The position numbers and the translations under genes were made by a program. Below the pieces are notes generated by a model. It was not told the DNA's origin and ran no database searches. It worked only from the letters and a program-made list of their open reading frames with translations. Below are positions 14,981 to 31,382 of a stretch of DNA of 34,185 nt, piece after piece (position 1 is the first letter of the stretch; the number at the start of each line of letters is the position of its first letter). Location: positions 1-34,185 of the forward strand of contig JAQYVF010000051.1 in the NCBI GenBank assembly GCA_030145625.1, written 5' to 3'. The DNA comes from Desulfocapsa sp. GTDB taxonomy: Bacteria; Desulfobacterota; Desulfobulbia; Desulfobulbales; Desulfocapsaceae.

Positions 14981-16441
14981 TTATTTGATTTCTTCTAATG
15001 TCTTTTCGTGACGAGGGATGGAAATCGTACAGATATTTAACTGATTTTCTTCTCTGACAACATCTAGGCTGCCGCCAAAGGTTTGCAAAAACTGTCTGCA
15101 AAAATTCATATTGTGCCACGGTTTGTTGGAATTGTTACCGTGAAGAGACTTTTCGAGTTCCCAGGGAATGCCATTGTCATAGATGGATATGTCGATTTGG
15201 GATTCAGTGATGGAGTCACTGTTGATGATGATCTCTATTTTTTTATCTCCTGACTCATGATTTTTAAATCGAGCATTCAAGGCTGTCCTGCTGCTTTGAA
15301 TGGCTGACAAAATGACCAGTTGCAGATCACTGACATGGTAATTTAGCGTAAGTTCACTATCTGTTAAAGTGATGGTCAACTCAATGCTGTCGGTTTTGAG
15401 TGTTCCTTTGGTGAGGGTCAATATATGTTCAAAAATACCTTGTAGAGTCAGACTCTTTGCTTCACCACTTTCGCTGCCACTGGTAAACAGTATCATGTGA
15501 ATAAGGAGTTGCGACATCTTTTTTTCTTCGGAAAAAAGTTTTCGCAAAATATCTTTAGAATCACTATCTAACCGTGACTCATCAATGAGGTCTATAAGAG
15601 CCTGGGTGTAGTTTGTAATTCCATTGGAGAGATTGGTGAGCTCATGAGACAATCCTCCTAACAGATGTCCAATGCTGCTGTATCTGTAGAGACGGGCAAG
15701 TTCCTTTACCGGCCATTGCACATCCATTTCAGTTGTTGTTTGAGGACTTTTTGGGGCCTGTTGTGAGGCCAGTGATTCAATTGCTGAGTTGATTGTAAAA
15801 AGAGAGATTTCACCCGATGATTTTGTTGGAAAAAGAGATCTGCAATAATGAATAATGGGAGTAGTTATATATTTGTTTAACACCAGGAGCATGATACTGA
15901 CTGTGGCCACGATAAGGGCCAGCATTCCAACTAATGCACGATGGAGTCCCATTAGCTGTTTCTGTGTGTATCTTGTGATGAGTTGATGGAAACTCGTCAG
16001 TTTTGTGCTTATCGATCGTAGTTGTGTAGAGAGTAAAGCAAGTTGATTCGTAGTTGGTGATTCATGTCTGTTTTGCATACTGCGTAAGCTTACTGTGACA
16101 TTGACTAGATCCACCTGGGTTATATATGCAAGTTTGAATTCCTCAGGTATAAGGATATCGCTTAAGACTGAATTTAATTCCTTATCCAGTCCCTTAATCT
16201 CTTTAATAAGTATGGAACTGTCTAACGATTTCTGACTGAGAAGTGTTTCATTTATATGTTCTTTTATTCCAGTGAACTGAAAAAGGAGGTTTTGGCTGGA
16301 ATCAACGAGCTGTTCACAATGACGAAAGAGGAAATACTGTTTACTCGCAAGAAAGATGACAATAAAGAGCAAGAAGACTGTCGCTCCTGTAAAAACAAAA
16401 AAAACACTTTTCAACGAAATTTTTGAAAAAATGGTTTGCAT
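14981..16441 (-). CDS. Membrane histidine-kinase-like protein with degraded catalytic domain
   Basis: A 486-residue sensor with membrane helices at about 12-34 and 168-190 flanking a periplasmic helical domain. A dimerisation domain holds the phospho-acceptor H266 in LLGGLSHELTN. The ATPase domain is unusual. The N-box reads LVILSAIQSSRTAL without the Mg-binding Asn, G1 keeps DNG (IYDNGIP), and the G2 box GxGxGL is replaced by KPWHNMNF. ATP binding is therefore doubtful; it may be a pseudokinase or accept phosphoryl groups from another kinase. The start ATG has an AGGAAAAAGG ribosome site. It sits behind the NrfD operon terminator and ahead of P1, so it may sense the state of the electron-transfer complex. 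Confidence 0.78.
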   Translation of the reverse strand: MQTIFSKISLKSVFFVFTGATVFLLFIVIFLASKQYFLFRHCEQLVDSSQNLLFQFTGIKEHINETLLSQKSLDSSILIKEIKGLDKELNSVLSDILIPEEFKLAYITQVDLVNVTVSLRSMQNRHESPTTNQLALLSTQLRSISTKLTSFHQLITRYTQKQLMGLHRALVGMLALIVATVSIMLLVLNKYITTPIIHYCRSLFPTKSSGEISLFTINSAIESLASQQAPKSPQTTTEMDVQWPVKELARLYRYSSIGHLLGGLSHELTNLSNGITNYTQALIDLIDESRLDSDSKDILRKLFSEEKKMSQLLIHMILFTSGSESGEAKSLTLQGIFEHILTLTKGTLKTDSIELTITLTDSELTLNYHVSDLQLVILSAIQSSRTALNARFKNHESGDKKIEIIINSDSITESQIDISIYDNGIPWELEKSLHGNNSNKPWHNMNFCRQFLQTFGGSLDVVREENQLNICTISIPRHEKTLEEIK

Positions 16442-16518: not shown

Positions 16519-17772
16519 CTATTTTTCACCTTTCCATCCATATACGATGGGGAGACGATAAACAATAAAGCGATAAGTCAGAAAATAGAGGGAGTATATA
16601 GTTATGGTAATCCATACTTCTTTCCAATGTGGGATTTCCTGGTAGAGCTGCCAGTTGTAGCAAATGAGTGCAGTGTTGAGACGATTCCAGATAATTCCCA
16701 GTGCAGCGATAAGTGCTGCAAATCTGATCAGGCCAACATAGCGATGCCTGATGCCTATGGCAAACATGAACATGGGGATTACAACAGCTACTCCAAGTTC
16801 CAGCATGTAGTAACTTCCCCATCCGGTGAGCAGATAGGACCATTCCTGGTCATGGGCGACAGCCACTATTTTGATTATCAGGTAGGTGATCATGGAATAG
16901 GAACAACCTTTTGCCAGTCCTATGGTTATGTAGTCCAAACTGTCTTTGAACTCATCATCACAGCGCCATGCCATAAAATACCTGATTAGCGTTGAGGAGA
17001 TGATGATCATGGAGAGGCCTGCGAAAATGGATGAACAGAAGAAATGAATCCATTGAAAGTTGACGGAAAGCCATAAAGGATGAACTTTTGCTGGAGCGTA
17101 GGTAAATAAGGCACCTAAGGCCCCCTGGTGGAGAGTGGAAAGAATGATACCGGCGATGGTCAATCCTAAGACCATTTTTCTAATGACTCGTTTTCCTTTA
17201 AGCCAGCCAATCCATTCAAAAAATGCAGGAAGAACTTCTGCTACCTGGACGGAAAGATAAGTCGCAACATGCCAGGCAACTAGGAAAAGAACGGCTGCAG
17301 GACCAAGAGAGACAAACATAGGGTAGGGCAGTCGCCACGGCATACCAAGGTCAACTTCCAGAAAAAGAACAGCAAAGAAATACCCCAGAAGCCCGTTCAG
17401 CAGTGCCAAACGTTCAATTGGATGAAAATCTTTTCTGCCGAACAGTTCTACAGTGGTACCCAGCATGAATCCTGATGCGGAAAGGGGAACCATTCCGAAG
17501 AGGCCAAAGCCAAGAAAAAGTCCCCAGGGATAATCATTGGAAGCGTGAGTTACAGCGCCGAGGCCATAAATGTAACGTTGGAGAAGAAGGGGTACACCAA
17601 GTGCAAAGATACCCATCATCAGCCAGTTTACAGGATTTCTGAAAAATTGTTTTTTATACTCACCAATGGACAATCCTAACCACAGTTTCTCCTTTATTGT
17701 CCATTCTGTTCCATCTGCTTTCAGATGATGGACAATTGGGATTTCAGGTCGTTCCTTTGAAAAGATTCTCAT
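16519..17772 (-). CDS. NrfD-family membrane subunit, HybB/HmcC-like
   Basis: A 417-residue polytopic protein with about nine to ten hydrophobic helices after a polar N-terminus. NrfD-family subunits exchange electrons between quinones and an adjacent Fe-S protein. The segment STLHQGALGALF is typical of the HybB/HmcC branch, and an acidic residue sits in the helix FLEVDLG. It overlaps the ferredoxin gene by 4 bp (ATGA), so translation is coupled, and it is the last gene before a terminator. With the HybA-like ferredoxin and the pentaheme cytochrome it forms a three-part transmembrane redox complex. No hydrogenase or molybdoenzyme subunit is nearby, so the cytochrome is the likely periplasmic partner. 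The direction of electron flow is unknown. Confidence 0.88.
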   Translation of the reverse strand: MRIFSKERPEIPIVHHLKADGTEWTIKEKLWLGLSIGEYKKQFFRNPVNWLMMGIFALGVPLLLQRYIYGLGAVTHASNDYPWGLFLGFGLFGMVPLSASGFMLGTTVELFGRKDFHPIERLALLNGLLGYFFAVLFLEVDLGMPWRLPYPMFVSLGPAAVLFLVAWHVATYLSVQVAEVLPAFFEWIGWLKGKRVIRKMVLGLTIAGIILSTLHQGALGALFTYAPAKVHPLWLSVNFQWIHFFCSSIFAGLSMIIISSTLIRYFMAWRCDDEFKDSLDYITIGLAKGCSYSMITYLIIKIVAVAHDQEWSYLLTGWGSYYMLELGVAVVIPMFMFAIGIRHRYVGLIRFAALIAALGIIWNRLNTALICYNWQLYQEIPHWKEVWITITIYSLYFLTYRFIVYRLPIVYGWKGEK

Positions 17773-18704
17773 ACCTGCCCCTCCTTATCTTCTTTTTCTT
17801 GTTCTTTAATCTTTTCTTTTCTCGTTGCCAGTAAGTGGAATCCAACAAAGAGACCAGGCCAGATAGTGAGAACCATGGGAACGATAGCTAAGAAATCTTT
17901 TACGGAATTTAAGATTGGTTCTTTTGGAACATGGGTGTCGAAACCAACCTGATCAAAGGGAACACTGGAGATATACATCCAGGCTGTACCGCCTACTTCT
18001 TTTTCTCCATAAATATGTTCTACATATTTTCCTGGAGTTTCACGGATACGTTGGCGACCCATGTTGATTAGATCGTTTCTACGACCAAAAGTCAGTGCTT
18101 CCTGTGGACATGCCTCTACACAGGCAGGAGGTTTACCATCTTTTAAACGGGTATCGTAACAGAAGACACATTTCATTATCCTTGGATCAAAGGCACTGGA
18201 ATATTTAAAGGTTGGAATGTAAAATGGGCAGGCAATCATGCATGTTCTGCATCCGACGCAGACCTTGGAATTGTAGATAACTGCGCCTTCCGGTGTCTTG
18301 GTATATGCGTTGACAAAGCAGGAAGTCAGACAAGCAGGTTCCTGGCAGTGATTACATTGGATCTTGCGAAAAAGGGGGTGATCGAGATTTGGAACATCGT
18401 ATCTGTTGACCACCGTATAGGCAGTTTCGTCGGTCCGTCTCTTCTGTCCATGTTTTATTTCGTCAAAGACTGAATAATCGTCAAAGGGTTTGGCAGGTTC
18501 CGGTAGCTCCTGTTCTTTGTTACAGGCAGCTTCGCAGCTTCTGCATCCAATACAGCGTGTGAGGTCAACCAGCACACCCATTCCCTCTGGATACCCTTCG
18601 AATGATTGTGCCGCATGCGCCTCTTTGTTTTGTATCACCGCAACAGCTGCAGTACCTGCAAGACCGCCTTTTAGAAAATTTCTACGGCTTACTGTTTTTT
18701 TCAT
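17769..18704 (-). CDS. Tat-exported HybA-like ferredoxin with C-terminal anchor
   Basis: A 311-residue periplasmic electron carrier. The N-terminus has a twin-arginine signal (SRRNFLKGG), so it is exported folded. Cys groups for four [4Fe-4S] clusters are visible: CIGCRSCEAAC, CNHCQEPACLTSC, CVGCRTCMIAC and the CVFC...CVEAC pair. A hydrophobic helix near residues 268-290 and a charged tail (KEKIKEQEKEDKE) anchor it in the membrane, as in HybA. It connects the pentaheme cytochrome upstream with the HybB-like quinone-site subunit downstream, which it overlaps by 4 bp. Ribosome site GAGAGGA. No cluster ligand appears missing. Confidence 0.9.
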   Translation of the reverse strand: MKKTVSRRNFLKGGLAGTAAVAVIQNKEAHAAQSFEGYPEGMGVLVDLTRCIGCRSCEAACNKEQELPEPAKPFDDYSVFDEIKHGQKRRTDETAYTVVNRYDVPNLDHPLFRKIQCNHCQEPACLTSCFVNAYTKTPEGAVIYNSKVCVGCRTCMIACPFYIPTFKYSSAFDPRIMKCVFCYDTRLKDGKPPACVEACPQEALTFGRRNDLINMGRQRIRETPGKYVEHIYGEKEVGGTAWMYISSVPFDQVGFDTHVPKEPILNSVKDFLAIVPMVLTIWPGLFVGFHLLATRKEKIKEQEKEDKEGQV

Positions 18705-18830: not shown

Positions 18831-19361
18831 TTAATGACCAGGAGCCGAGTGTCCTTTTGCTGGGCTGTATTTACCGGTATAGAACATTTTTTCACCGGCA
18901 TCGGTCATGGTATGACAGTCCTGGCAACCGGTTGGGCCGGATGTTGTTTCGTGACAGCTTATGCAGTTAAGGTGATAAGCACCTTTGAGTCCTGGCTTGT
19001 CGATATGATAAAGCTCTGGAGCTTCAAGGGTTCTGATGTAGGTTTCGTTAAAGCGATCTGTTGCATGGCATCCGGTGCAGGTTACTTCGTCGGCTTCTCC
19101 ACTGGTACTGTGACAGCGTGCACAATTCGGATTAACAACTTCTCCACCTGTGGTGTGATGATGGCATTCCTGGCAACTCGCGTAGTCTACATGCATGGCA
19201 TGATCAAACTCAACTCCAGTATAGAGATTTACCAGGCTGTCAATAGTTACAGACTCCGGAGCATCTTCTGCATCCATGGACCAGATTTGGGCAGGAGCAA
19301 TGAGAACTCCTCCAATGGCAATGGCCAATGCCGTCTGCATTATTCTTTTTCGTGCTTGCAT
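18831..19361 (-). CDS. Periplasmic pentaheme c-type cytochrome
   Basis: About 176 residues with a signal peptide ([18 protein letters not shown]...). Five CxxCH heme sites are present: CQECH, CARCH, CTGCH, CISCH and CQDCH. The first is followed by extra histidines (CHHH) and preceded by FDHAMHVDY, resembling class III cytochrome c3/c7 domains in which distal His ligands precede the motif. I set the start at the ATG at 19361, with AAGGAGG eight bases ahead, rather than the ATG at 19385 in the same frame. Even so it overlaps the end of ftsH by 22 bp. It would pass electrons to or from the HybA-like ferredoxin. It has one heme site more than tetraheme c3. Confidence 0.9.
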   Translation of the reverse strand: MQARKRIMQTALAIAIGGVLIAPAQIWSMDAEDAPESVTIDSLVNLYTGVEFDHAMHVDYASCQECHHHTTGGEVVNPNCARCHSTSGEADEVTCTGCHATDRFNETYIRTLEAPELYHIDKPGLKGAYHLNCISCHETTSGPTGCQDCHTMTDAGEKMFYTGKYSPAKGHSAPGH

Positions 19362-21238
19362 TCTGTTTCCTCCTTGTAAAAACATCTGGGTAATCCTGGA
19401 ATTTTATCGTCTAGTTTTTCTTTTTCCTCCTTCTGTTTGTTCATAAGTTTTTTCTCAATATTTTTTTTATTTATATAACAATAATGGACGATATCCATTT
19501 CTTGGCCATCTACGGTTTCGTTAACAAGCAGGGCTTCGGCAAGTTTATGGAGAAATTTATTGTTCTCGGTAAGCAGCTCTACTGTTTCCGCGTAACATTT
19601 TTCTATGATTCTTTTGATCTCATTATCGATATTTTCCGCCGTTTTTTCGCTATAGGGTCTAGTTGTTGTGGAGCCTCCAAGAAAGCCCTCCTGTTCTTGA
19701 ATGTAGGCAACAGGACCAATGGCTTGACTCATGCCAAACTCGCAGACAAAACGGTTGGCAATCTCGGTTGCTGTGAGGATGTCATTGCTGGCACCAGTAG
19801 TCTGATGACCAAAAACAATCTCTTCAGCGACACGCCCACCCATGAGAATTTTTATTCTGTTGATCAGATACTCACGTGAATAGGTGTATCGATCATCAAG
19901 GGGTAACTGCTGAGTGAGACCTAAGGCCCTCCCTCGAGGAATAATGGTAATTTTATGGACAGGGTCGGTCTCTGGAAGGAGTTTGGCTGTGATGGCATGT
20001 CCAGCTTCATGATAGGCCGTGACGCGCCGCACTGTTTCATTGATAACAACATTTTTACGCTCAAGACCGAGACTGATTTTATCTTTGGCTTCTTCGAAAT
20101 CAGAAAGTTCTACACTGGCTTTATTGTGCCGTGCGGCCATTAATGCTGCCTCGTTGACCAAGTTGGCAATTTCAGCACCACTGAATCCCGGTATAGACCT
20201 AGCAATTTCAGAAAGATTAACATCGTGTTCCATAATGATTTTTTTTGCATAGACTTCGAGAATTTTACGTCTGCCCTCCAAATCCGGTAGACTAATGGTC
20301 ACCTGACGGTCAAAACGACCTGGACGAAGCAGGGCAGGATCAAGGATGTCGGGACGGTTTGTGGCAGCAATGATGATGACAGTTTCGTCGGAATCAAATC
20401 CGTCCATTTCAACGAGCAGGGCGTTCAAGGTCTGTTCACGTTCGTCATTGGAACCGGTGGCATTCCCTCCACTGCGTTTTCCGCCAATGGCATCTATTTC
20501 GTCGATAAAAATAATGGCTGGTGCATTTTTCTTTGCTTCAGTGAAAAGTTCTCGTACTCGAGAGGCACCAACACCTACAAACATCTCTACAAAATCTGAG
20601 CCGCCTATGGAAAAAAAGGGGACTGATGCCTCTCCCGCTATCGCTTTGGCAAGAAGAGTTTTACCTGTTCCTGGAGGACCCTGTAGTAGAACACCTTTTG
20701 GTATGTATCCTCCAAGTGCGCTGAATTTTTCAGGGTTTTTTAAAGATTCTACTATCTCTATCAGTTCGGATCTGGCTTCGCTGATACCAGCAACATCCTC
20801 AAAGGAGACTTTCGTATTTTTGCTTGGCACAAAAGAGCTGTACTTGTTTTTGCCCAAACCAGAACCGCCTGCTTTTTGGGTCCGACTAAAGATCAGGTAT
20901 CCACCAAGAATAAGGAAAACAGGGACCATAGATTTAAGAAAGGCTCCTATATTTTCGGTATCTTTCTCAGCTGTTATTTGAACAGATTTTTCTTTGAGAA
21001 TGGTTAGGGTGGCTGGGACATCAGGAGTAAAGGAGCTGAAAGATTGTTTTTTAATGTCTTCGCCTTCTATGGCCCCCCCCTTTAAGTGAACGGTTTTAAT
21101 TTCACCTTTTTGTAGTTGCTCCATGAAGTCTGTATAGGAAATTTCATTGGGAGTTGTTTCTTTGAGGTAAACATTGTAGCCAACAACCCCTAAAAGGGTA
21201 AGAAGCAGTAAGAGTAATCCTATTTGAATTTGAGACAT
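19340..21238 (-). CDS. ftsH: ATP-dependent zinc metalloprotease FtsH (operon-specific copy)
   Basis: A membrane-anchored AAA+ protease that unfolds and degrades membrane and regulatory proteins. The 632-residue protein shows a first helix (about 6-22), a periplasmic domain, a second helix (about 102-117), Walker A GPPGTGKT (187-194), Walker B IIFIDEID, the arginine-finger region [10 protein letters not shown], and zinc ligands HEAGH (410-414) with D486 in TGASNDI. All catalytic residues are intact. It starts 4 bp after the transposase-like gene and overlaps the cytochrome gene, so it belongs to a redox operon behind a sigma-54 promoter. That is unusual for the housekeeping enzyme; a second copy elsewhere in the genome is likely. 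The weak ribosome site suggests translational coupling. Confidence 0.93.
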
Positions 21239-21242
21239 AGAA

Positions 21243-22157
21243 TCATTCCGTGGTAATATGGGCAGTTAAGTTCTTGTATGATCTGGATTTCTGTGCAAGA
21301 ACACCTGATAATAGGAGATTGAATATAGCCTCATTGTCGGAAAGCATTGCTACATTGCTACGAAAACAAAATTCATCGAGATAGAGTTGGAGATGTTTGG
21401 CAACTACTCCTCCTCTGTGGATCTTATTCAACCAGATCTCAAAACTTTGTATGATTTGTTGGATGCGAACAGTAGTGGCACTCTTTGAATCGGCAATAGT
21501 GAAATATGCGTCCTGATCTATACCTTGATAACCAGTGCTGTCGGGGACAACAAGTGACGACCCGGTGGCCACATGTTTGTTTAAGAAACTGGTTACTGTA
21601 TTTTTTGAGAGTTCACCTATGGATTCCATTTTTATTCTTCCGGTGATCCCTGATGGTAGAATGATTTCCGCAGCTGCAAGAATTTGTGATTTGCTTCCCT
21701 TATCTCCACCTAATAATATGCTGTTAGAGCAGAGTTCAATAGTGCCACGACACGGCTTGTTATCGGCAACTGCCATAGCCATGCGAAGCTTCTGCAGCCA
21801 TGTCCAGGCAGTTTGATAGCTTGAGAGGTTCAACAGGCGTTGTAAATCTTTGGCGCTATGGCCACCATCAGTAGATGCAAGCCACCAAATACACTCCAAC
21901 CACCCAAACAAGGGTTTTTTCGTTCCATGCATTATGGTGTTTGTAGTTATTGAGGTGGGATGTCCGCAATGACTGCAGGTAATAGTTTTTGCTGGTTCTT
22001 GTTCCCTTTTTATCCAGTTGCAGTAAGGGCACATAAATCCCTTTGGCCATCGTTTGTAAAAGAGAAAATGTAGGCAGGTAGTCTCGTTATGAAACTGTTT
22101 TTTGAATTCTTCTATAGTTTTGGGAAATCGATTTTTAGGAGTGAGAATGTCCTGCAT
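21243..22157 (-). CDS. IS1595-type (ISXO2-like) transposase homologue with lost catalytic residues
   Basis: The 304-residue protein has the IS1595 layout: a zinc ribbon (C43-x2-C46, C61-x2-C64), a helical LQRLLNLSSYQTAWTWLQKLRMAM segment and an RNase-H-like part ending KHLQLYLDEFCFRSN. The first catalytic Asp (normally in VEVDET) is replaced: residues 141-145 read ELCSN, with C143 at that position. The second Asp is kept (D206 in VVPDSTGY). The Glu upstream of the KHL motif is Q234 by ungapped alignment. No terminal inverted repeats are visible, and the stop lies only 4 bp before ftsH. It has a strong GAGGAG ribosome site and a sigma-54 promoter 48 bp upstream. It looks like a DNA-binding protein adopted by the operon rather than an active element. 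Confidence 0.85.
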   Translation of the reverse strand: MQDILTPKNRFPKTIEEFKKQFHNETTCLHFLFYKRWPKGFMCPYCNWIKREQEPAKTITCSHCGHPTSITTNTIMHGTKKPLFGWLECIWWLASTDGGHSAKDLQRLLNLSSYQTAWTWLQKLRMAMAVADNKPCRGTIELCSNSILLGGDKGSKSQILAAAEIILPSGITGRIKMESIGELSKNTVTSFLNKHVATGSSLVVPDSTGYQGIDQDAYFTIADSKSATTVRIQQIIQSFEIWLNKIHRGGVVAKHLQLYLDEFCFRSNVAMLSDNEAIFNLLLSGVLAQKSRSYKNLTAHITTE

Positions 22158-22202
22158 GTGTTCTCCTCAAATTTTTGAACTTATCCACTTTAATTTGAGT
22201 GA

Positions 22203-22221
22203 TTGCACATACGATGCCAGA
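22203..22221 (-). promoter_or_regulatory. Sigma-54 promoter P2 ahead of the transposase-like gene
   Basis: Minus strand reads CTGGCATCGTATGTGCA. The -24 element is TGGCAT, the -12 element is GTGCA, and GG and GC are 10 bases apart. Predicted start near 22193, about 36 bases before the ATG at 22157. It closely resembles P1 (TGGCACCGTAGATGC). Palindrome C lies about 235 bp upstream. Confidence 0.7.
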
Positions 22222-22419: not shown

Positions 22420-22477
22420 GCCACACAAGTGCTTCCAATGCAACACTTGTGATTCTACACAAGTGTTGCATTGGAAG
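22420..22477. promoter_or_regulatory. Operator C: perfect 20-bp inverted repeat plus extra half-site
   Basis: CTTCCAATGCAACACTTGTG (22432-22451) is exactly inverted at 22458-22477 with a 6-base gap. A third half-site, GCCACACAAGTG, starts at 22420. The inner TGCAACACTT/AAGTGTTGCA matches sites A, B and E. It ends 4 bp from the stop of the response regulator gene and lies upstream of P2. It could also act as that gene's terminator, but there is no T-run. Confidence 0.72.
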
Positions 22478-22481
22478 AGGG

Positions 22482-24293
22482 TTAGATATCGATGGTGCTG
22501 AGGTCGATTTTTAGTTCTTTGAGTTTTCTATACAGCGTTGATCTGTCCATGTTGAGTAGTCTGGCTGCCTTGGCTTTATTCCCACCTGTTTTTTTTAAGG
22601 CGGTAATGATACTACTCTGAAAGGAATGATATTGGGCGGGGGCGGTAAACGAGGCTGAAGTTTCAGTTTGTTGGATTGGTTTCTCTTGCAGGAGAGGGGC
22701 TGTGTGCTCAGGAGGTGCATGAGCATGCTGAATTTCGAGAGGAAGTTGTTCGGTTGAAATGGTAGAACCACTGCAGAGCACACATGTACGTTCGATTACA
22801 TGTTCTAGTTCTCTGATATTCCCTGGCCAGTAATATTGAGAAAGCAATGTCATGGCCTGATCTGTAATACCAGTTATAGGTTTATTCATTTTTTTGCTGA
22901 ACTGCTGGATAAACATATTCACCAGGAGTTCAACATCTCCAGTACGCTCTCGAAGGGAAGGAAGAATAATATCAATAACTCTGAGACGAAAATAAAGATC
23001 TTCACGGAAGTTTCCCTGCTCTACTTTTTCGCGTAGATTGACATTGGTTGCTGCAATTACTCGCACATCTACATGAATGGGAGTATCTCTTCCAACAGGA
23101 TAAAAGGTTTTTTCCTGAAGAAAGCGAAGGAGTCGCAGCTGCATCATTGGCGAAATATCTCCTATTTCGTCAAGAAACAAGGTCCCTCCATCAGCTTGCA
23201 AAATTCGCCCCATCCTGTCCTGATCTGCTCCGGTAAAAGAACCCTTTTTATGTCCAAAGAGTTCGCTTTCCAGAAGGTTTTCTGGGATAGCAGTACAGTC
23301 TACTTTTACCAGAGGGCGGTTTTTTCTGTGACTTTCCAAGTGCAAGGCCTCTGTTGCCAACTCTTTGCCGGTTCCACTTTCTCCAGTAATAAGAACAGCT
23401 GAATCTACCTTGCCAACATTTTCGATCATGGCATAGACGGTTTGCATAACAGTACTGGCACCAATCATTCGATGGAAAGAGCTACGTTGTTGAGAATTGT
23501 TTTGTACCTGGCATGTCATGTCACGGATCACAATGACAACACCATGGACCCCCCCCCGACCGTCTTCTAGTGGTGAGATACAGAGACTAAATACATTCTC
23601 TGTTTGAGAGGCAGTGATTAACTCAATTCTGTGTTCCTTGATTTCAATACCGGATCGTAATACTTTTTCTGTATCCTCTTTAAAAAAACAACATTTATTT
23701 TCGGAGCAGGACAGGGAAAGATTATTTCCTTCTCGAATGTCCGGATTGATTGATGCGAACATGGAACGGGCTGCCTGATTCATTTTGATGATATTCAGGT
23801 TCTCATCAATCGTCATAATACTGTCGGAAACACTTCTGAAAAGGGTGACTAAGTAGCTGCGATACTTGTCTTTCTCTTCTTTTGCCAATTGTTTTTCCTG
23901 CTGGAGCCGATATTGTTGCAGGGCAAGGCGGGTGGTTTTGAGGAGTAATTCCTTGTCAACCGGTTTCTGGATGTAGTCAAATGCGCCAAAACGCACTGCT
24001 TCAGAGGCTGTATCCACAGTAGGATAGCCGGTTATCATGATGACTGGACTGGAGAGGCCAAGTTCACGGATTCTCTTTAAAAGATCAATGCCTGAATTGC
24101 CACCCAAGACGATGTCGCTGATGATCAAATCAAAGGGCTGACTGGTGAGTTCACTGACCGCCTTTGCAAAATTTGAGGCCATTACAACCGGCCCATATCC
24201 CTCCCGTTTAAGAAAAATTTGAAAAGTGTGGCGCAGGCTTTCCTCGTCGTCAACTATGAGAATTGGAGTGTTAGCGGTTGATTCATTATTCAT
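22482..24293 (-). CDS. NtrC-family sigma-54 response regulator with PAS domain (first)
   Basis: A 603-residue transcription activator. The receiver (about 10-125) has VDDE, phospho-acceptor D60 (IISDIVL), a Thr in MITGYP and the Lys of QKPVD. A PAS-like domain follows (about 145-260) with a Cys cluster CSENKCCFF. The AAA+ domain has GESGTGKE, the sigma-54 contact loop in the variant GSFTGA, and GTLFLDEIGD. A Fis-type helix-turn-helix (GGNKAKAARLLNMDRSTL) ends the protein. It is the last gene of an operon with the kinase at 25476 and the PAS protein. It probably binds the palindromes of this region and activates P1 and P2. Ribosome site AGGGGAAAG. Confidence 0.92.
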   Translation of the reverse strand: MNNESTANTPILIVDDEESLRHTFQIFLKREGYGPVVMASNFAKAVSELTSQPFDLIISDIVLGGNSGIDLLKRIRELGLSSPVIMITGYPTVDTASEAVRFGAFDYIQKPVDKELLLKTTRLALQQYRLQQEKQLAKEEKDKYRSYLVTLFRSVSDSIMTIDENLNIIKMNQAARSMFASINPDIREGNNLSLSCSENKCCFFKEDTEKVLRSGIEIKEHRIELITASQTENVFSLCISPLEDGRGGVHGVVIVIRDMTCQVQNNSQQRSSFHRMIGASTVMQTVYAMIENVGKVDSAVLITGESGTGKELATEALHLESHRKNRPLVKVDCTAIPENLLESELFGHKKGSFTGADQDRMGRILQADGGTLFLDEIGDISPMMQLRLLRFLQEKTFYPVGRDTPIHVDVRVIAATNVNLREKVEQGNFREDLYFRLRVIDIILPSLRERTGDVELLVNMFIQQFSKKMNKPITGITDQAMTLLSQYYWPGNIRELEHVIERTCVLCSGSTISTEQLPLEIQHAHAPPEHTAPLLQEKPIQQTETSASFTAPAQYHSFQSSIITALKKTGGNKAKAARLLNMDRSTLYRKLKELKIDLSTIDI

Positions 24294-24314: not shown

Positions 24315-25436
24315 TCACGAAAAGGTAGTGAGATCGCGAAAGACCACCACTGCTCCGGTTAGTTTATTGCCCTCAATAATAGGGGTGGATGTATATTCAA
24401 CGGAAAAACTGTTTCCATCTTTTGCCCAGAAGGTGTCGTCGGACTTGAAGTGAACCTTCCCGTCTTGGTAAGCCATGTAAATCGGACAATCTTCTACTTT
24501 GTAGTGGGTTCCATTGATATGACTGTGATGGATAAGGTCATGATGTGATTTGCCGATTAATTCTTCCTGTTCCCAACCAAGCATGATACTGGCTGCCTTG
24601 TTCATGAACGTAACATTGCCGTCAATATCCAAGCCGAAAATACCTTCTCCGGCAGAGTTGACGATGAGTTCAAGTTGTTTTTTGAGTTTTTTGATTTTGC
24701 CGATATCCTTAAATACTACCACTGCACCTGTGACCTTGTCTTCATCAAGAAGAGGAGTGGATGTGTATTCTACGGAAAAGCTTTGACCAGATTTCTTCCA
24801 GAAAACATCATCGGATTCAGAATAATCCTGTCCATCTTTATAGGCCTTGAGGATCGGGCATTCATGATCAGGAAAATTAGTGCCGTCCTGATATGAATGG
24901 TGGACCATGTCATGGTGGAGACTTCCGATGAGTTCCTCTGAACTCCATCCGAGTAACTCGGTTGCCTTCCGGTTGACAAAAGTTACTTTACCCTTGATGT
25001 CAAGGCCAATAATGCCATCTCCTGCCGAGTTGAGGATGGCATGCAGCCGTTTTCTAAGTTTTACCCCTTCTGCTTTAGCCTGAATGCGTTCAGCTATTTC
25101 TCTGTTTAAAGAGCCATTGATAACTGATAGTTCAAAGGTCTTTTTTTCAACTGCATCGTCAAGACTGGACTGGACATAGTTTAAGGATTCAGTTGTTGAA
25201 TTCAGGGAGTGCTCCAGTTGCAGCAGCTTTTTTTTATAGGAATTGAATTCACTGAGAAAAAGAAAGAGAGTGAAACCATAGAGTGAAGTGAGCGTAACAA
25301 GGGACCAGGACTCATAAGGAAAATATGATACCTTGTTTGCGTTTGCATTAATTTTAAGGTCAAGAACGTATATGATTACAGCCACAGAGAAGAACGCCAA
25401 AGAAAGTAACAGAGAAAACCGGAATTTTCTGCTCAT
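24315..25436 (-). CDS. Membrane protein with two PAS domains and no output domain
   Basis: 373 residues: two membrane helices (about 7-26 and 43-62), a coiled-coil linker (about 64-130), then two PAS domains similar to each other (about 128-250 and 255-370). Both carry the unusual block HHD-x2-HHS-x2-(D/N)GT followed by a CPI motif (HECPI, VEDCPI) and end with FSVEYTSTP...GAVVVF(K/R)D. There is no kinase, cyclase or other output domain; the protein ends shortly after the second PAS. It lies between the kinase and response regulator genes (40 and 21 bp gaps), suggesting it is a sensory partner. The conserved His and Cys residues could bind a cofactor or metal; that is inference. Ribosome site AAGGAG. 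Confidence 0.86.
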   Translation of the reverse strand: MSRKFRFSLLLSLAFFSVAVIIYVLDLKINANANKVSYFPYESWSLVTLTSLYGFTLFLFLSEFNSYKKKLLQLEHSLNSTTESLNYVQSSLDDAVEKKTFELSVINGSLNREIAERIQAKAEGVKLRKRLHAILNSAGDGIIGLDIKGKVTFVNRKATELLGWSSEELIGSLHHDMVHHSYQDGTNFPDHECPILKAYKDGQDYSESDDVFWKKSGQSFSVEYTSTPLLDEDKVTGAVVVFKDIGKIKKLKKQLELIVNSAGEGIFGLDIDGNVTFMNKAASIMLGWEQEELIGKSHHDLIHHSHINGTHYKVEDCPIYMAYQDGKVHFKSDDTFWAKDGNSFSVEYTSTPIIEGNKLTGAVVVFRDLTTFS

Positions 25437-25475: not shown

Positions 25476-27482
25476 TTAGTAATCTGAACTCGGTAAATCA
25501 ACAATGATTGAGGTAAATGAACCAAACTCACTTTTAATTCTGAGGTATCCTTTGTTGTCATGAATAAGGCCGTGGCTGATGCTAAGTCCAAGCCCTGTTC
25601 CTTCTCCTTTTGGTTTTGTTGAATAAAATGGATCAAAAACCCGATTAATAATATCCTGCTCAATTCCAATACCGTTGTCTGTAATGGTGAGGCGGATATA
25701 AGTTTTATCGTCTATTTCTACTTTCCTGCTGGAGATGAAGATTTTTTTTAGGGGGTGTTTTTTTTGGAAGCGTTTGTTCAGTGCATACCTGGCATTGGAG
25801 AGTATATTGAGCAGGACCTGCTGGACCTGTTGAGCATTGCAGCGAACATTAGCTAACCTTGTTTGCCAATGAAACTCAAGGAGGGTCTGATCTTTCCTGA
25901 ACTGATGGCCGACTAGTTCAAGGCAACTCTGAACAATCTTGTGAATAGAGACATTTTCAAGTTCCTCTGAATTTTGCCTGGAAAAATCGAGAAGATTATA
26001 AACAATGCCAGCAACTCGTTTTCCCTCTTTGATAATCCGCTTAAGGATATCCTGGTTATCAGGATCTCCAGGGTCGTCTAAAATTATCTGAGCGTAATTG
26101 ATGATACCATTAATAGGATTATTAATTTCATGAGCAACACCGGCAGCTAACTCACCGAGTGAGGCCAGTTGCGCGGCACGGATGGCCTCTGCCTTCATAC
26201 GTTCTTCTTCTGATAGATTTCGGGCTACGAGAAGCGTCGCTTCAATATCATTCTCGAGTTGCTGTAACGGACTGATTGTGAGCAGGTAATTTCCATGGAG
26301 GCCACTAAGTTCTGTTTCTATGATACGACTTTCTCTTGTTTTAAGTTGTTGTTCTAAAGGGCAGGTGGCTCCGCTTCTTCTACCTTCATGCAGAATTTCA
26401 CATACGTCATGGCCAATGATGTCTGATCTGTTCTTTCGGGCAGAAGTGAAAGTGGCAAGATTAGCATCGAGAATTATACCATCAATAGAAACGATTAAGG
26501 CAGGATCCTGAATTGCTGAGAATATATTTTCCCATTTAGCAATAGCCTGATTGAGATCTTGTCCAGCCTGTATTTGACCGGTAATATCCATACCAAAGAG
26601 AACAAGTCCGACTTTTCCCTGGTCAATGTTTTGCCGAAAAGAGCCATGCCAGCTGATTGTTCTGTTTTGGTTATCTTTCGTGAGGAGACAGGACTCAAAA
26701 TTTATCTGCAGTTCTGTACCTTTTAGTAAGTTAGCCAGGAGCTGCTGGTTTGCTGTCCGATGCTCTGGATCCATGAGCACATCAACCCAGTAGAGATCAA
26801 GAACCTCTTCTTCTTTGTATCCTGTAATTTCTTCAGCTTTATGGTTGAAAGAAAGAATTTGCCCGCAAGGTGAAACAGAGACAAGCAGGGCCTGCATTGT
26901 GTCGACGATTTCTCGATTGAAATCACGTTCCACTTGCATACTCTGGGCCATTGCCTGTGAATAGAGGGCCAGGGAGATATCTGCAATGACTGTTTTTAGA
27001 AAGGAGACTTCTTCTTCTGTGAAGTAGTTGATTTTTGCGGAATGGATACTGAGGACACCGAATTCTTTTTCTTTGTATGTCAATGGCCATGAAGAACAGG
27101 ATTTGAATCCTGTTTTTTGTGCAATGTCACGCAAGGCTTTGGAATCGATTTCTTGAAGGACATCTTGACAAATAACATGCTTTCCTGAGAGGAGGGCTTG
27201 AGCTGCAGGGTGCGATTCGTGCATGTCGGCTATGACCTGTTCGACCAGATACATGCATTGTTCGTTCGAGATATTTGCCAATGTCAGAGCAACCAAAGGG
27301 GAGAGCGCTGTACCATCGTTATCATCGCGTCTACCTGCCCATATCAGACAATATTCCTGATTATGCATGATGATTTGGCAGCATTTTTCAAGGAGGTGAT
27401 TTTGAGAAGAAATTCCTTTGGCATCAGATGCTACTAATTCATTGATAGCTAGCAGTATGGTATTTCTTCTGGAAAAATCCAT
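25476..27482 (-). CDS. Cytoplasmic GAF-PAS-PAS histidine kinase (first)
   Basis: About 668 residues without membrane helices. Order: GAF domain (about 10-180), PAS (about 190-305), second PAS (about 320-430), histidine phosphotransfer helix with the acceptor in GELAAGVAHEINNPINGI, then an ATPase domain with N-box NILSNARYAL, G1 TDNGIGIE and G2 GEGTGLGLS, all intact. The second PAS contains VCEILH...TCPL, a Cys/His set shared with the kinase at 31383. This NtrB-like kinase should phosphorylate the regulator two genes downstream. I chose the ATG at 27482; the frame also opens at a TTG 6 bp earlier. The ribosome site is weak. Palindrome D lies about 85 bp upstream. Confidence 0.92.
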   Translation of the reverse strand: MDFSRRNTILLAINELVASDAKGISSQNHLLEKCCQIIMHNQEYCLIWAGRRDDNDGTALSPLVALTLANISNEQCMYLVEQVIADMHESHPAAQALLSGKHVICQDVLQEIDSKALRDIAQKTGFKSCSSWPLTYKEKEFGVLSIHSAKINYFTEEEVSFLKTVIADISLALYSQAMAQSMQVERDFNREIVDTMQALLVSVSPCGQILSFNHKAEEITGYKEEEVLDLYWVDVLMDPEHRTANQQLLANLLKGTELQINFESCLLTKDNQNRTISWHGSFRQNIDQGKVGLVLFGMDITGQIQAGQDLNQAIAKWENIFSAIQDPALIVSIDGIILDANLATFTSARKNRSDIIGHDVCEILHEGRRSGATCPLEQQLKTRESRIIETELSGLHGNYLLTISPLQQLENDIEATLLVARNLSEEERMKAEAIRAAQLASLGELAAGVAHEINNPINGIINYAQIILDDPGDPDNQDILKRIIKEGKRVAGIVYNLLDFSRQNSEELENVSIHKIVQSCLELVGHQFRKDQTLLEFHWQTRLANVRCNAQQVQQVLLNILSNARYALNKRFQKKHPLKKIFISSRKVEIDDKTYIRLTITDNGIGIEQDIINRVFDPFYSTKPKGEGTGLGLSISHGLIHDNKGYLRIKSEFGSFTSIIVDLPSSDY

Positions 27483-27566
27483 AAGCAACGTAACTTGTTA
27501 AAGTTAAAAAAAAGAAACAAAATGTAACTTGACTTGGCAAGTATTTGCAACATATGTGTGTCACAA
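27483..27566. other. Left part of the control region 27483-28192
   Basis: The plus strand at 27533-27551 reads TTGGCAAGTATTTGCA, which has both sigma-54 elements but with GG and GC only 9 bases apart, so it is probably inactive. No sigma-54 match points toward the kinase gene. Confidence 0.3.
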
Positions 27567-28192: not shown

Positions 28193-28957
28193 ATGAACAT
28201 TAAGGATTTGGAAAAGGAAAAAAATGAGGGAATCGACTCATTGCCTTCATCAGAACGTCGTAATTTCCTGAAAATAGGACTGGCGGTCACTGGTGTTTTC
28301 CTTGGAGGCTCTGTGCTGTCGCTAACTTCGGTAAATACCGCCAAGGGAGGAAACAGTGATTCCGTAATTCCTGCTGAAGGACAATATCCTTACGCCAAGC
28401 ATTACGGAATGATAATAAGGCAGAATAACTGTGTTGGTTGTGAAAAATGTGTCGAGGCTTGCAGAGAGACAAATCATGTTCCTGTTGGCCATGGTGCCTG
28501 GCGAACAGCTGTTCAGGAACGTTTGACCACTGTTGATGATGTGGAAAAAAGAGAATTTAGACCAATCCTCTGTAACCATTGTAATCGTCCCCCCTGTGTT
28601 CGAGTATGTCCTACCAGAGCAACCTACAAAGATCCGGAAACCGGTATTGTTGTCATGGATTACAAAAAATGCATCGGATGTAAAACCTGCATGGCCGCAT
28701 GTCCATATAATGCCAGATATTTCAGCCATGACAAGTATGCCATTGATAAATGCAACTTTTGCTTAGATACAAGGCTGGCAATGGGTGAGAAAGAGACCGC
28801 TTGTGCGGCTGCTTGTCCTGCAAGAGTAAGAATTTTTGGTGACATAAAAGATAAAAGCACTGAAATCTACCAGTTATTGCATGAACCTGACCATAAAATC
28901 TGGGTGTTGCGTCCGGAAACCGGCGCGTTACCTAATGTTTTTTATATGAATGCGTAG
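28193..28957 (+). CDS. Tat-exported ferredoxin, NrfC/DsrO-like
   Basis: A 254-residue periplasmic Fe-S protein. The twin-arginine signal SERRNFLKIG is followed by a hydrophobic stretch to about residue 50. Cys groups for four [4Fe-4S] clusters are present: CVGCEKCVEAC, CNHCNRPPCVRVC, CIGCKTCMAAC and the CNFC...CAAAC pair. Unlike the HybA-like protein at 17769 it has no C-terminal membrane anchor and is shorter, matching NrfC or DsrO. Ribosome site AGGAGGGG. It is followed by a hexaheme cytochrome and an NrfD-type membrane protein. The trio resembles the DsrJOP arrangement of sulfate reducers, though the cytochrome is not DsrJ. Confidence 0.9.
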   Translation: MNIKDLEKEKNEGIDSLPSSERRNFLKIGLAVTGVFLGGSVLSLTSVNTAKGGNSDSVIPAEGQYPYAKHYGMIIRQNNCVGCEKCVEACRETNHVPVGHGAWRTAVQERLTTVDDVEKREFRPILCNHCNRPPCVRVCPTRATYKDPETGIVVMDYKKCIGCKTCMAACPYNARYFSHDKYAIDKCNFCLDTRLAMGEKETACAAACPARVRIFGDIKDKSTEIYQLLHEPDHKIWVLRPETGALPNVFYMNA

Positions 28958-29327
28958 GAGGTGTTGTCCATTTAGAAACGATCATTTGAATTGTTGCAAG
29001 CTCGTTTACCTTCACGATATCTTATGGTGTTTAAAATGTGTCCTTGGAATATCTACTATATGTTTCCAGACTTTCTTCTTTCGGGGCGTATTGTATTTCG
29101 TTTCCAGAGGGTACCTTGTGGTAAGTTTTTTTACATATCGTTATTCCGAACAGGAAAGTGAACTGGAAGGTTGGACTTATCTGCAAGGCATCAATAAATT
29201 CGTTTCTATCAGGAGACTAGGTAACTCACGGTCCAGGAAAATGATGCTGTCTGGGAATCCAAGTGATTGAGATTCTAAATCGCAGCCCACTTACAGTATA
29301 CCACTCAGATTCTAGGAGATCATAAAA
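28958..29327 (+). other. Gene-free stretch between ferredoxin and cytochrome genes
   Basis: 370 bases with no supported gene. A 106-codon frame overlapping the ferredoxin stop from 28950 has no ribosome site in register and an unlikely composition (Cys/Arg/Phe-rich). No sigma-54 pattern or strong hairpin was found. The gap is long for an operon of linked subunits. Confidence 0.4.
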
Positions 29328-29993
29328 ATGAATAAGAAGTTAGTTAATGCTATCGGTATCACCATACTCGCAGGAACATTTTTGCTTGTGAGCAATAGTT
29401 CTGCAACAGAAGAGTATGATGTGAAGGCATTTGGCCCTAAAAACCCAATTGTCTGGGATCGGCCTGTCAAAGTTGTCTTTGAACACAGAGTGCACACAGA
29501 TGAAATCGGTCTTGAATGCAGCGCTTGTCATGGCGAGATTTTTGCCATGCAGCGTGGTGTTGCGCTTAATTCAGGTCAATTGACCATGGCTTCCCTTGCA
29601 GAAGGAAAATTTTGTGGTGCCTGCCATGATGGGGATACTGCCTTTGCCACTGATACGAATTGCAGTGCCTGTCACATTGTTCCTGAGGATTTGATTGTCT
29701 GGACTAAACCTGTTAAGGCCGTGATATTTCACCATCAATTACACATAGATGAATATGGTCTAGATTGTGACTCTTGTCATGACAGTGCGTTTGCCATGAA
29801 AAAAGGTACAGCAGAGAAATCAGCAAACTTCACAATGAAGGCCCTTTACAAAGGACAATACTGCGGTGAGTGCCATGATGGCGAAACTGCTTTTGCCTCA
29901 AATACCCTCTGCAATACATGTCATATAGGAGTTAAAGGATATAACAGGATGATGGGTGTTACTCCTCACGCTGAGAAGAAAAGTGGTCATTAA
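29328..29993 (+). CDS. Periplasmic hexaheme cytochrome built of two c7-like triheme halves
   Basis: 221 residues with a signal peptide (hydrophobic about 7-24, cleavage near NSSA). Six CxxCH sites form two repeats: CSACH, CGACH, CSACH and CDSCH, CGECH, CNTCH. Each half begins VW-x2-PVK and has H-x4-H before the first heme, then (M)A/K-x-L-x2-G-x-(F/Y)CG-x-CHDG-(D/E)TAFA. This pattern is typical of cytochrome c7 and related c3 domains, so the protein arose by duplication of a triheme unit. It would shuttle electrons between periplasmic donors and the Tat ferredoxin/NrfD pair. Ribosome site AGGAGA. It differs from the pentaheme cytochrome at 18831, so the two complexes probably use different periplasmic partners. 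Confidence 0.92.
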   Translation: MNKKLVNAIGITILAGTFLLVSNSSATEEYDVKAFGPKNPIVWDRPVKVVFEHRVHTDEIGLECSACHGEIFAMQRGVALNSGQLTMASLAEGKFCGACHDGDTAFATDTNCSACHIVPEDLIVWTKPVKAVIFHHQLHIDEYGLDCDSCHDSAFAMKKGTAEKSANFTMKALYKGQYCGECHDGETAFASNTLCNTCHIGVKGYNRMMGVTPHAEKKSGH

Positions 29994-30096
29994 TTGACAA
30001 AGAGATTTGTAGTTCTCTCTAAAAGAATGATCTGCAGAAAATTATATCAAATGCACAGGCTAAGAGCCTGAAAAATTTATTGCGCAGGAGATTAAA

Positions 30097-31290
30097 ATGG
30101 CGAACAATTCATTGGCTAATATTTTTGCCGAGACACAGGATCCCCGTCTGGCAACTCCCGGTGTAAACCGGGCAACGATTTTCTTCCTTATTACCGTCGT
30201 TGCTGGTCTCAGTTGTGGTGTTGCTTCCTTTATCTTTGGACATGAGGCCATATATAATAATACTCGTGAAGTACCATGGGGAATGTTGATTTCCACCTAT
30301 GCATTTTGGGCTATTACCTCTACTGGTCTTTGTATGTATGCTGCTATTTCTCATCTCTTTGGTGGTACAAGGATGGCTATCGTCAGTAACAGGATGGTAT
30401 GGATGTCAATTGTATGTATCCTTGCAGCATTTGCTACCATTGGAGTGGAGATTGCAAGTCCCCACAGAATGATCATTTATAATATTATTTCTCCCAACCC
30501 CACCTCAAATATCTGGTGGATGGGTACTCTTTACGGTCTGGCTGTGGGTTGTATGATTGTTGAATTCTTTGGCATTGTTGCCGGGTTGGCTCGTATTGCA
30601 GTCATTTTGGGAACGATGGGTGCCGTTGCTGAAGTTCTTGCCAACAGTTGTCTCGGTGGCGTTTTTGCAACCCTTCCGGCACGTCCTTACTGGTATGGCG
30701 GGCAACTCCCTATTTATTTTCTGACAGCAGCTTTTCTCTCAGGAGCAGCAGCTACTATTCTATTTAATTATATGGCTTATAAAATTCGTGGGGAGAAGAT
30801 GAACGAAGCTGTCCTGCTTGGCATTAAGAGTGCCGGAAAAGCCATGACACTTGTACTTGTTCTTTATACCGTTGCCACTTTCTGGCGGCTGATTATGTAT
30901 TATGTTGGTGGTGCGGAACTTGGCCGTATTGCAGCCGGTGCATTGATTAACGGTCCTCTTTCTATTAATTTTTGGGTCTTCGAAATCGCTATAGGGCTGA
31001 TCGTGCCGCTCGTACTAGTTGTTGTTTCCCGTTTGCAAAATGTTGGGTTGATGGCCTTTGCTGGACTCTTGATTCTCGTGGGACAGTTTGTAGCGCGCTA
31101 TGATCTCGTAGCTGCAGGTTTGCTTGTTCCTTCAAGTCTGGGCTGGGACAATGTCCCTACCTATTTCGATTACGTGCCGTCGGTCTTTGAGTTTGGGGTG
31201 ATAATCGGGAGTATCAGTCTTGTTTGTTTTGGTTTCCTCATGGGGGAAAGAGTTTTTGGTAAAATATTTGATCAGAAAGAACATCATTGA
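30097..31290 (+). CDS. NrfD-family membrane subunit, DsrP/TtrC-like
   Basis: 397 residues with about ten membrane helices. The start WGMLISTYAFWAITSTGLCMYAAISHLFGG is typical of the NrfD/DsrP branch that takes electrons from or gives them to the quinone pool. It belongs to a different NrfD branch from the HybB-like gene at 16519: it has no LHQ motif and a different helix arrangement. Ribosome site AGGAG. It follows the hexaheme cytochrome after 103 bp and is closed by an intrinsic terminator, so the redox trio forms one unit separate from the downstream kinase/regulator pair. Substrate and electron direction cannot be told. Confidence 0.88.
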   Translation: MANNSLANIFAETQDPRLATPGVNRATIFFLITVVAGLSCGVASFIFGHEAIYNNTREVPWGMLISTYAFWAITSTGLCMYAAISHLFGGTRMAIVSNRMVWMSIVCILAAFATIGVEIASPHRMIIYNIISPNPTSNIWWMGTLYGLAVGCMIVEFFGIVAGLARIAVILGTMGAVAEVLANSCLGGVFATLPARPYWYGGQLPIYFLTAAFLSGAAATILFNYMAYKIRGEKMNEAVLLGIKSAGKAMTLVLVLYTVATFWRLIMYYVGGAELGRIAAGALINGPLSINFWVFEIAIGLIVPLVLVVVSRLQNVGLMAFAGLLILVGQFVARYDLVAAGLLVPSSLGWDNVPTYFDYVPSVFEFGVIIGSISLVCFGFLMGERVFGKIFDQKEHH

Positions 31291-31304
31291 GCTAATAGCT
31301 CTTT

Positions 31305-31330
31305 AAAGGTCACTCTTGGAGTGACCTTTT
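31305..31330 (+). terminator. Intrinsic terminator behind the DsrP-like gene
   Basis: GGTCACTC (31308-31315) and GAGTGACC (31319-31326) form an 8-bp stem with a 3-base loop, extended by AAA/TTT and followed by a T-run. It lies about 15 bp after the stop codon. Confidence 0.92.
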
Positions 31331-31382
31331 TCGTTAAGGTATATTTGTTGGGTGTATTAAATAACTAAATATAGGCTTTCTT

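Follow-up and report, generated by a model that had tools for sequence, protein, structure and literature searches.

A catalytically dead IS1595-type transposase and a linked promoter element in an FtsH-cytochrome-HmcBC operon of Desulfocapsa

The window examined here is the whole 34,185-nt stretch of contig JAQYVF010000051.1 from Desulfocapsa sp. It carries a minus-strand operon with the order TNP-ftsH-cytochrome-hmcB-hmcC, in which TNP comes first behind a sigma-54 promoter. The sequence data below indicate that TNP is almost certainly a conserved domesticated transposase, which has lost catalysis and mobility and has long been kept under purifying selection at a conserved locus, while its host function is inferred. 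What is new here is a conserved sequence element linked to TNP in the promoters of TNP-containing (TNP+) operons, which is shown by sequence. The view that this TNP-linked, operator-like element resembles a transposon end is well supported apart from the exceptions named below.

The TNP operon and its promoter

TNP is a dead transposase of the IS1595/ISXO2 type with 304 amino acids (21243..22157, minus strand), identified by its open reading frame and profile matches. The start of ftsH lies 4 bp past the TNP stop. It encodes the M41 AAA+ protease FtsH (19340..21238, minus strand; profile match), and the genome of the window has five FtsH-like genes in all. The next genes on the minus strand encode a multihaem c-type cytochrome (18831..19385; open reading frame and profile match), an HmcB/HybA-like Fe-S protein (17769..18704; profile match) and an HmcC/HybB-like membrane protein (16519..17772; NCBIfam profile match). 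Both of the latter miss the NCBIfam cut-offs of the Hmc equivalogs (410.1 vs 420 for HmcB and 356 vs 550 for HmcC); the Fe-S and membrane proteins are related to the Hmc complex and are not classed as Hmc. A histidine-kinase-like protein with a weak profile match follows at 14981..16441 on the same strand.

Upstream of TNP, profile matches on the minus strand indicated an NtrC-type response regulator with receiver, PAS, sigma-54 AAA+ (Sigma54_activat) and Fis-type HTH domains (22482..24293), a two-PAS-domain protein (24315..25436) and a sensor histidine kinase with GAF, PAS, HisKA and HATPase domains (25476..27488). Positions 28193-32585 hold a divergent second module of an NrfC/DsrO-like Fe-S protein, a triheme cytochrome, an NrfD-like membrane protein and a kinase, which adjoins the same sensor kinase in several relatives.

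A promoter scan located the sigma-54 (-24/-12) core TGGCATCGTATGTGCA at 22204..22219 on the minus strand, with a score of 13 of 15 and a shuffle p of 0.01. It is the sole exact occurrence of TGGCAY-N6-TGCA in the window and is separated from the TNP ATG by 46 bp. The locus thus has both a sigma-54 promoter and an adjacent NtrC-type activator. A repeat scan also found a 20-bp inverted repeat, CTTCCAATGCAACACTTGTG / CACAAGTGTTGCATTGGAAG, at 22432..22477 on the minus strand. Its motif occurs in 29 of 38 TNP+ operons and in 10 of 21 operons without TNP (TNP-), with shuffles giving 0.3 and 0.4. Since the motif is common to TNP- operons, we rejected the palindrome as a TNP site; it is more likely the enhancer site of the response regulator, the terminator of the regulator gene, or both.

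An earlier, sequence-only reading of this locus had placed the feature at 21243-22221, 4 bp before ftsH and 48 bp after a sigma-54 promoter that follows an operator palindrome, and had named the downstream genes HybA and HybB. The 4-bp gap and the promoter held. The TNP gene stops at 22157, with 22157-22221 being the promoter, and the spacing to the promoter is 46 bp. The palindrome is present, with the more probable role in connection with the regulator or as a terminator, and the HybA/HybB naming held in part, HmcB/HmcC-like being the better name by the NCBIfam profiles.

Catalysis, mobility and descent of TNP

The profile matches of TNP are confined to IS1595 families and one weak zinc ribbon, with no TnpB family among them. 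TNP scores 41.1 bits against PF12762 DDE_Tnp_IS1595 (cut-off 27) and 96.2 bits against NCBIfam IS1595 (cut-off 75), and its 24.6 bits against the PF12760 zinc ribbon are slightly below the cut-off of 25.4. The protein contains the zinc ribbon cysteines C43, C46, C61 and C64, a helical region 'SYQTAWTWLQKLR' at residues about 113-125, an RNase-H-like core at residues 137-273 and a conserved tail, HLQLYLDEFCFRxN, at residues 255-268.

The alignment combined 57 operon-type homologues, each from a different genome, and 20 further IS1595 transposases of the same order. The strongest matches of a homologue search together with genome G024 make up the 57, which are not a census of the order. The four cysteines are found in 56 of the 57, the remaining row being truncated. 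W118 and R125 are likewise kept in 56, and Q257 and N268 in 55. In the catalytic columns the window TNP has C143, P205, Q233 and E240. Among the operon-type proteins, the first Asp column (143) holds Asp in 13 of 57 and the second (205) in none, and the complete D-D-(E/H/N)-K set is absent from all 57. The 20 other transposases all possess both Asp residues, and 19 of them have H/N at 233, the last one showing a gap. An intact triad recovered through a shifted alignment was considered and rejected: in nine rows D143 is accompanied by an acidic side chain at 205 or 206, and no row completes the set with H/N and Lys.

An AlphaFold2 model of TNP (mean pLDDT 85) shows an RNase-H-like core. The top Foldseek match of the model is the ISCth4 transposase (E 3.6e-5), and in VIA-align the Z scores are 12.4 (Hermes) and 11.9 (core of the avian sarcoma virus integrase). 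The structural pairing places residue 137 of the model on integrase residue 58. If the strand is ungapped, TNP residue 143 therefore pairs with integrase D64, the first catalytic Asp of that enzyme. A PDB sequence search with TNP yielded chance-level matches only (best E 0.33).

A scan within 500 bp of the window TNP detected no inverted-repeat ends above background. The scores of the window and of ten other operon genes (L034, L035, L036, L039, L045, L048, L131, L134, L146 and L148) were 8.5-12. Six of seven sister elements tested (L157, L158, L159, L160, L163 and L164) have inverted-repeat ends, with scores of 15-40.5. These ends are 23-43 bp long and located about 48-85 bp beyond the coding homology, and most are based on a GGGTAT(C)C-like sequence; at L158 and L163, 8-bp direct duplications could in addition be read by eye. 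No ends were found for L161, the seventh sister element. The scan is imperfect, as several distant genes with the Asp pair also score just 10-12.5. TNP is single-copy in the genome of the window, where three other matches were seen, two of them IS1595 genes with just 31-37% identity and one at chance level (E 0.45).

Chance does not account for TNP lying in front of ftsH, given that conservation of the gene and of its neighbours in the operon extends across an order. The gene order is shared by Desulfocapsa- and Desulfobulbus-named relatives and is found across the order; the cultured Desulfobulbus rhabdoformis and D. elongatus are among those with the operon. In 54 of the 57 genomes ftsH is located on the same strand no more than 300 bp downstream of TNP. 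The exceptions are G177 (L150), which has TNP, cytochrome-HmcB-HmcC and the element in the absence of FtsH and so separates TNP from FtsH naturally; G140, which has the regulator and no FtsH within 2.5 kb; and one locus cut by a contig end. An NtrC-type gene is found within 800 bp upstream of TNP in 45 of the 57. Among the other 12, the available upstream sequence is shorter than 1130 bp in seven; in five it reaches at least 1480 bp and the regulator is lacking from it. The distribution of the operon itself exceeds that of TNP: of 257 genomes of the order, 135 have an HmcC match at E 1e-60, and many operons in other lineages have FtsH without TNP. TNP is thus widespread in the operon and not universal.

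A phylum-wide draw of 395 genomes searched at E 1e-55 gave ten genomes with matches, of which two were operon members. The nine other matches, from eight genomes, were flanked by neither ftsH nor hmc genes within the 2.4-3.9 kb examined, and at this threshold the sample contained no operon-type TNP relative outside the order. Two further observations concern other IS1595-like proteins. L243, from a different family of the phylum, by eye lacks both the first and the second Asp motif, and the operon neighbours are absent from the stretch examined. Eight proteins from Paenibacillus (L053, L054, L055, L056, L057, L059, L060 and L076) lack VExDE/TDG by eye; the six of these placed in the tree form their own clade, distant from the operon clade and with varied neighbours, and this group could possibly be another dead IS1595 lineage.

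In the TNP tree, from which three truncated rows were left out, the operon TNPs form a single clade of 55 rows (SH-aLRT 100). With midpoint rooting, the sister group consists of the eight nearest IS1595 rows, which have the Asp pair. In the regulator tree, 45 TNP+ rows are placed inside one supported clade of 51, and four TNP changes are required, most simply one gain and three losses. TNP likely goes back to the capture of an IS1595-type transposase by an ancestor of these families, a single capture being the simplest assumption. In the TNP- operons of L184, L185, L187, L188, L189, L191, L197, L200 and L207, two small, apparently membrane proteins sit between the regulator and ftsH in the slot of TNP; the first has 70-140 amino acids as called, and the second has 102-106 amino acids and the motif VD(F/Y)YTHIKGxEY.

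The dN/dS of TNP, paired with each of the three closest named loci, is 0.09-0.13, within the range of 0.03-0.13 of its operon neighbours. Within TNP the RNase-H core changes faster than the helical region and the tail; the values are 0.16-0.20 for the RNase-H core, 0.04-0.08 for the helical region, 0.04-0.07 for the tail and 0.06-0.14 for the zinc ribbon.

The sequence-only reading had proposed that TNP keeps the zinc ribbon and IS1595 fold, has Cys at the first Asp (C143) and Gln at the Glu position (Q234), lacks visible inverted-repeat ends and is kept by selection. The zinc ribbon and fold held by profiles, alignment and predicted fold, and C143 held by the alignment, consistent with the predicted fold. 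The Gln was off by one, as the third catalytic column is Q233. The lost triad, checked by alignment with IS1595 transposases and by a fold model, was confirmed, an intact one not being found. The lack of ends held in the end scan, and selection is supported by the conserved setting, the catalytic loss in 57 of 57, the dN/dS values and the single clade. Two observations named as able to refute the reading were several identical copies in the genome, which were not found in that of the window, and absence of the gene from the same operon in relatives, which does occur, in other families and through about three later losses.

The element downstream of the sigma-54 core

Comparison of promoters indicated the TNP-linked element AAGTGGATAAGT at 22179..22190 on the minus strand, about +4..+15 relative to the expected start. 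We compared 55 TNP+ promoters, leaving out of the 57 L152, which has no upstream sequence, and L141, which has no good sigma-54 site. In 32 of the 55, GTGGATA has its first base exactly 15 nt beyond the 16-nt core, and all 32 occurrences of GTGGATA downstream of the core share this offset. The spacing between GTGGATA and the point where TNP homology begins is variable, from 17 to 156 nt. In 35 promoters belonging to the larger group, the information content is 1.5-1.9 bits per base at offsets 13-24, with one position at 0.94, and falls to 0.23 bits at offset 25. This level matches that of the -24/-12 element, in which GG and GC had been fixed as search requirements. The set of 35 was picked by genus and family after the element had been noticed. 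Five loci with at least 1480 bp of upstream sequence and no regulator in it (L116, L117, L131, L143 and L144) keep the element or a GATAGG variant.

The TNP- promoters were taken from 40 regions, of which L181 proved to be TNP+ and L204 was a downstream stretch. Twenty-three were examined, and removal of L186 and L183, which lack a good sigma-54 site, gave 21. The remaining 15 mostly have no regulator or ftsH in the stretch; at seven of these loci ten sigma-54-like sites were found, and GGATA follows none of them. The set of 21 includes close relatives that lost TNP (L173, L175, L182, L203, L174 and L180) and that keep the regulator and a sigma-54 site. With the best site for each promoter, GGATA at offsets 10-25 is present in 41 of 55 TNP+ promoters and 0 of 21 TNP- promoters. 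When every qualifying site was counted, it was present at one of 28 in the 21 TNP- stretches. The best-scoring site in some TNP- operons may not be the true promoter.

Several exceptions should be noted. Fourteen of the 55 TNP+ promoters are without GGATA, and a second group of TNP+ promoters has the variant CAGGATAGG one base nearer the core. Offset 13 is somewhat conserved in TNP- promoters as well (0.78 bits). In the TNP- locus L210, AACAGGATAATT follows a second sigma-54-like site between the regulator and ftsH; it is the one positive among the 28 sites, and is possibly an exception to the link between TNP and element, or possibly chance.

The element co-varies with TNP. Partial Mantel tests gave r=0.58 for the element and TNP given the regulator (44 operons) and r=0.46 given the regulator and FtsH (40 operons), these sets being drawn from the 55 promoters. 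The corresponding value for the element and FtsH given the regulator and TNP was -0.11, and that for the sigma-54 core and TNP was -0.01. By part of TNP, co-variation with the element was 0.64 for the tail, 0.60 for the helical region, 0.41 for the RNase-H core and 0.12 for the zinc ribbon. One upstream flank also correlates (r=0.21). Element distances were ungapped, and differences to the group with GGATA one base nearer are thus overstated. As partial Mantel tests overstate significance, the contrasts weigh more than the p-values. The regulator tree offers just four independent TNP contrasts, which leaves a paired test without power; the element agrees with TNP in one to three of them and contradicts it in none (median p 0.25).

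The element was also compared with the ends of the sister elements, a comparison made only once the likeness had been noticed. For five of the six sister elements the element matrix fits the ends with a single strand and register, as seen for L157 with AAAGCGGATACCCA against AAAGTGGATAAGTC. The fit of L163 is weak (p 0.04), and the L164 end does not fit. The mean score of the element matrix over the six ends was reached by 0 of 5000 shuffles, and for five more distant IS1595 elements the scores of the ends are at the level of shuffles. When a matrix built from the ends (TIRs) was run over the promoters, its top-scoring position fell at one exact place in 33 of 55 TNP+ and 0 of 21 TNP- promoters, or in 36 and 3, respectively, with one base of slack; it scores at least 5 in 32 of 55 and 3 of 21.

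The element is a single half-site, whose orientation is reversed with respect to the left transposon end. Inspection of the promoters by eye revealed no constant second half-site. At L126, CTTATCCAC-N6-GTGGATAAG just past the sigma-54 core joins the element and an inverted partner into a perfect palindrome. A hairpin in the mRNA around the element was rejected, as it appeared by eye in just the four closest genomes. We also rejected a regulon in the genome of the window. Allowing one mismatch or fewer, the element has 21 sites there against 30 for the reversed control, and the sole other exact site lies inside an apparent aldehyde-dehydrogenase reading frame (by eye). With no enrichment of the element elsewhere in the genome, the data agree better with a regulator that acts locally and limits itself than with a global one.

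Proposed autoregulation, rival explanations and related systems

A probable mechanism, and the best explanation of these data, is as follows. The response regulator and sensors would switch on the FtsH-cytochrome-HmcBC operon through sigma-54. TNP, the first product, would still bind the relic-like end through its helical region and tail, perhaps also the zinc ribbon, and, once bound at about +4..+15, would block or slow the sigma-54 polymerase. TNP would in this way limit its own operon by feedback, and FtsH may remove or tune TNP. We lean slightly towards this autoregulation through a relic-like transposon end over its negation; both the binding and its sign are inferred, in the absence of expression data. 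Repression rather than activation, itself inferred, is the least certain step. The suggestion in the sequence-only reading that TNP is a regulator or DNA-binding partner is supported by the TNP-linked, transposon-end-like element, with DNA binding remaining an inference.

Several rival explanations can be considered. TNP might be a protein partner of FtsH, such as a substrate, adaptor or inhibitor, with DNA binding being incidental. The position of ftsH directly downstream in 54 of 57 genomes and the 4-bp spacing in the window speak for such a role. However, G177 retains TNP and the element without FtsH, many FtsH operons are without TNP, and TNP co-varies with the promoter element; we regard this explanation as unlikely. 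It is similarly improbable that the element is read by the response regulator, another factor or the polymerase, or acts as a 5' signal in the mRNA, with TNP having a different role. Its fixed distance from the promoter, the partial conservation of offset 13 in TNP- promoters (0.78 bits) and the similar sequence at L210 would agree with another reader. Against this, GGATA is missing at the best site in all 21 TNP- operons, which have a similar regulator, and the element co-varies with TNP and not with the regulator or FtsH. The wide variation of the distance between element and gene speaks against an mRNA signal.

TNP might also bind the element and activate the operon by DNA bending or by helping open-complex formation. 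No evidence here separates repression from activation, although a site over the transcription start more often blocks than helps, and we consider activation unlikely. Finally, TNP could be a recently immobilised, decaying insertion sequence, as would agree with the IS1595 homology and the lost triad. This explanation is all but excluded by the conserved setting in most of the 57 genomes, the open frame, the dN/dS of 0.09-0.13 and the absence of ends; a recent insertion was likewise rejected, as the locus is conserved and no ends were found. Autoregulation by TNP remains the preferred reading.

By descent, TNP is an IS1595-family protein. The IS1595 family is characterized by a zinc ribbon, a DDE_Tnp_IS1595 domain and usually 8-bp duplications (PMC8101967). 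TNP is homologous to these elements throughout, with the zinc ribbon, the RNase-H-like core and the C-terminal motif, whereas it has no catalytic set or detected terminal repeats, a fixed position in an operon and vertical descent. As catalysis and ends were tested and not met, TNP is not a member of the mobile family by function.

TldR proteins are TnpB-like, nuclease-dead, RNA-guided repressors (PMC13418256, citing Wiegand 2024). Of the known systems, TldR is the one that TNP would resemble most in the way it works. Like TldR, TNP is a transposon protein that lost catalysis, kept nucleic-acid recognition (inferred for TNP) and became tied to host genes. TldR is RNA-guided and derived from TnpB, whereas TNP is of the DDE type and would read DNA directly; in addition, the candidate target of TNP, unlike that of TldR, is its own operon. 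SfsB/Ner, Xre-type and antitoxin regulators are co-opted DNA-binding proteins of mobile elements (PMC8987985). TNP resembles SfsB/Ner and the antitoxins as a mobile-element protein serving as a host regulator. However, those proteins were regulators beforehand, while TNP comes from a transposase. The relevant passages of this review name no DDE transposase turned regulator, and IS1595 is absent from the review.

The Ohc operon of Desulfovibrio has genes for a cytochrome, an Fe-S protein and a HybB-type membrane protein, and DVU3142, a predicted sigma-54 activator, is its predicted regulator (PMC4641369). The window operon likewise combines cytochrome, Fe-S and HybB-type genes with a sigma-54 activator. 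FtsH and transposase are mentioned nowhere in PMC4641369. In the open-access literature searched we found no description of the TNP gene or of a dead IS1595 regulator; PMC3608642 mentions both a 'transposase-like protein' and FtsH, in unrelated places.

It is commonly suggested that new DNA-binding regulators arise from transposases, and the worked cases with both a protein and an ancestral-type site are mostly eukaryotic. In a bolder reading, which may as well prove wrong as right, TNP is a DDE transposase acting as a protein-guided autoregulator that still reads a relic transposon end, by now fixed over the transcription start of a sigma-54 respiratory operon, and has co-evolved with it across an order of sulfur bacteria. 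If true, it would be the DNA-reading counterpart of the RNA-guided TldR repressors. As mobile sister elements with ends, immobile descendants, a candidate operator and lineages that have lost both are all available, the path from transposon end to operator is testable. If the reading is true, it would also mean an unexpected layer of control on electron-transport operons of sulfate reducers and sulfur disproportionators.
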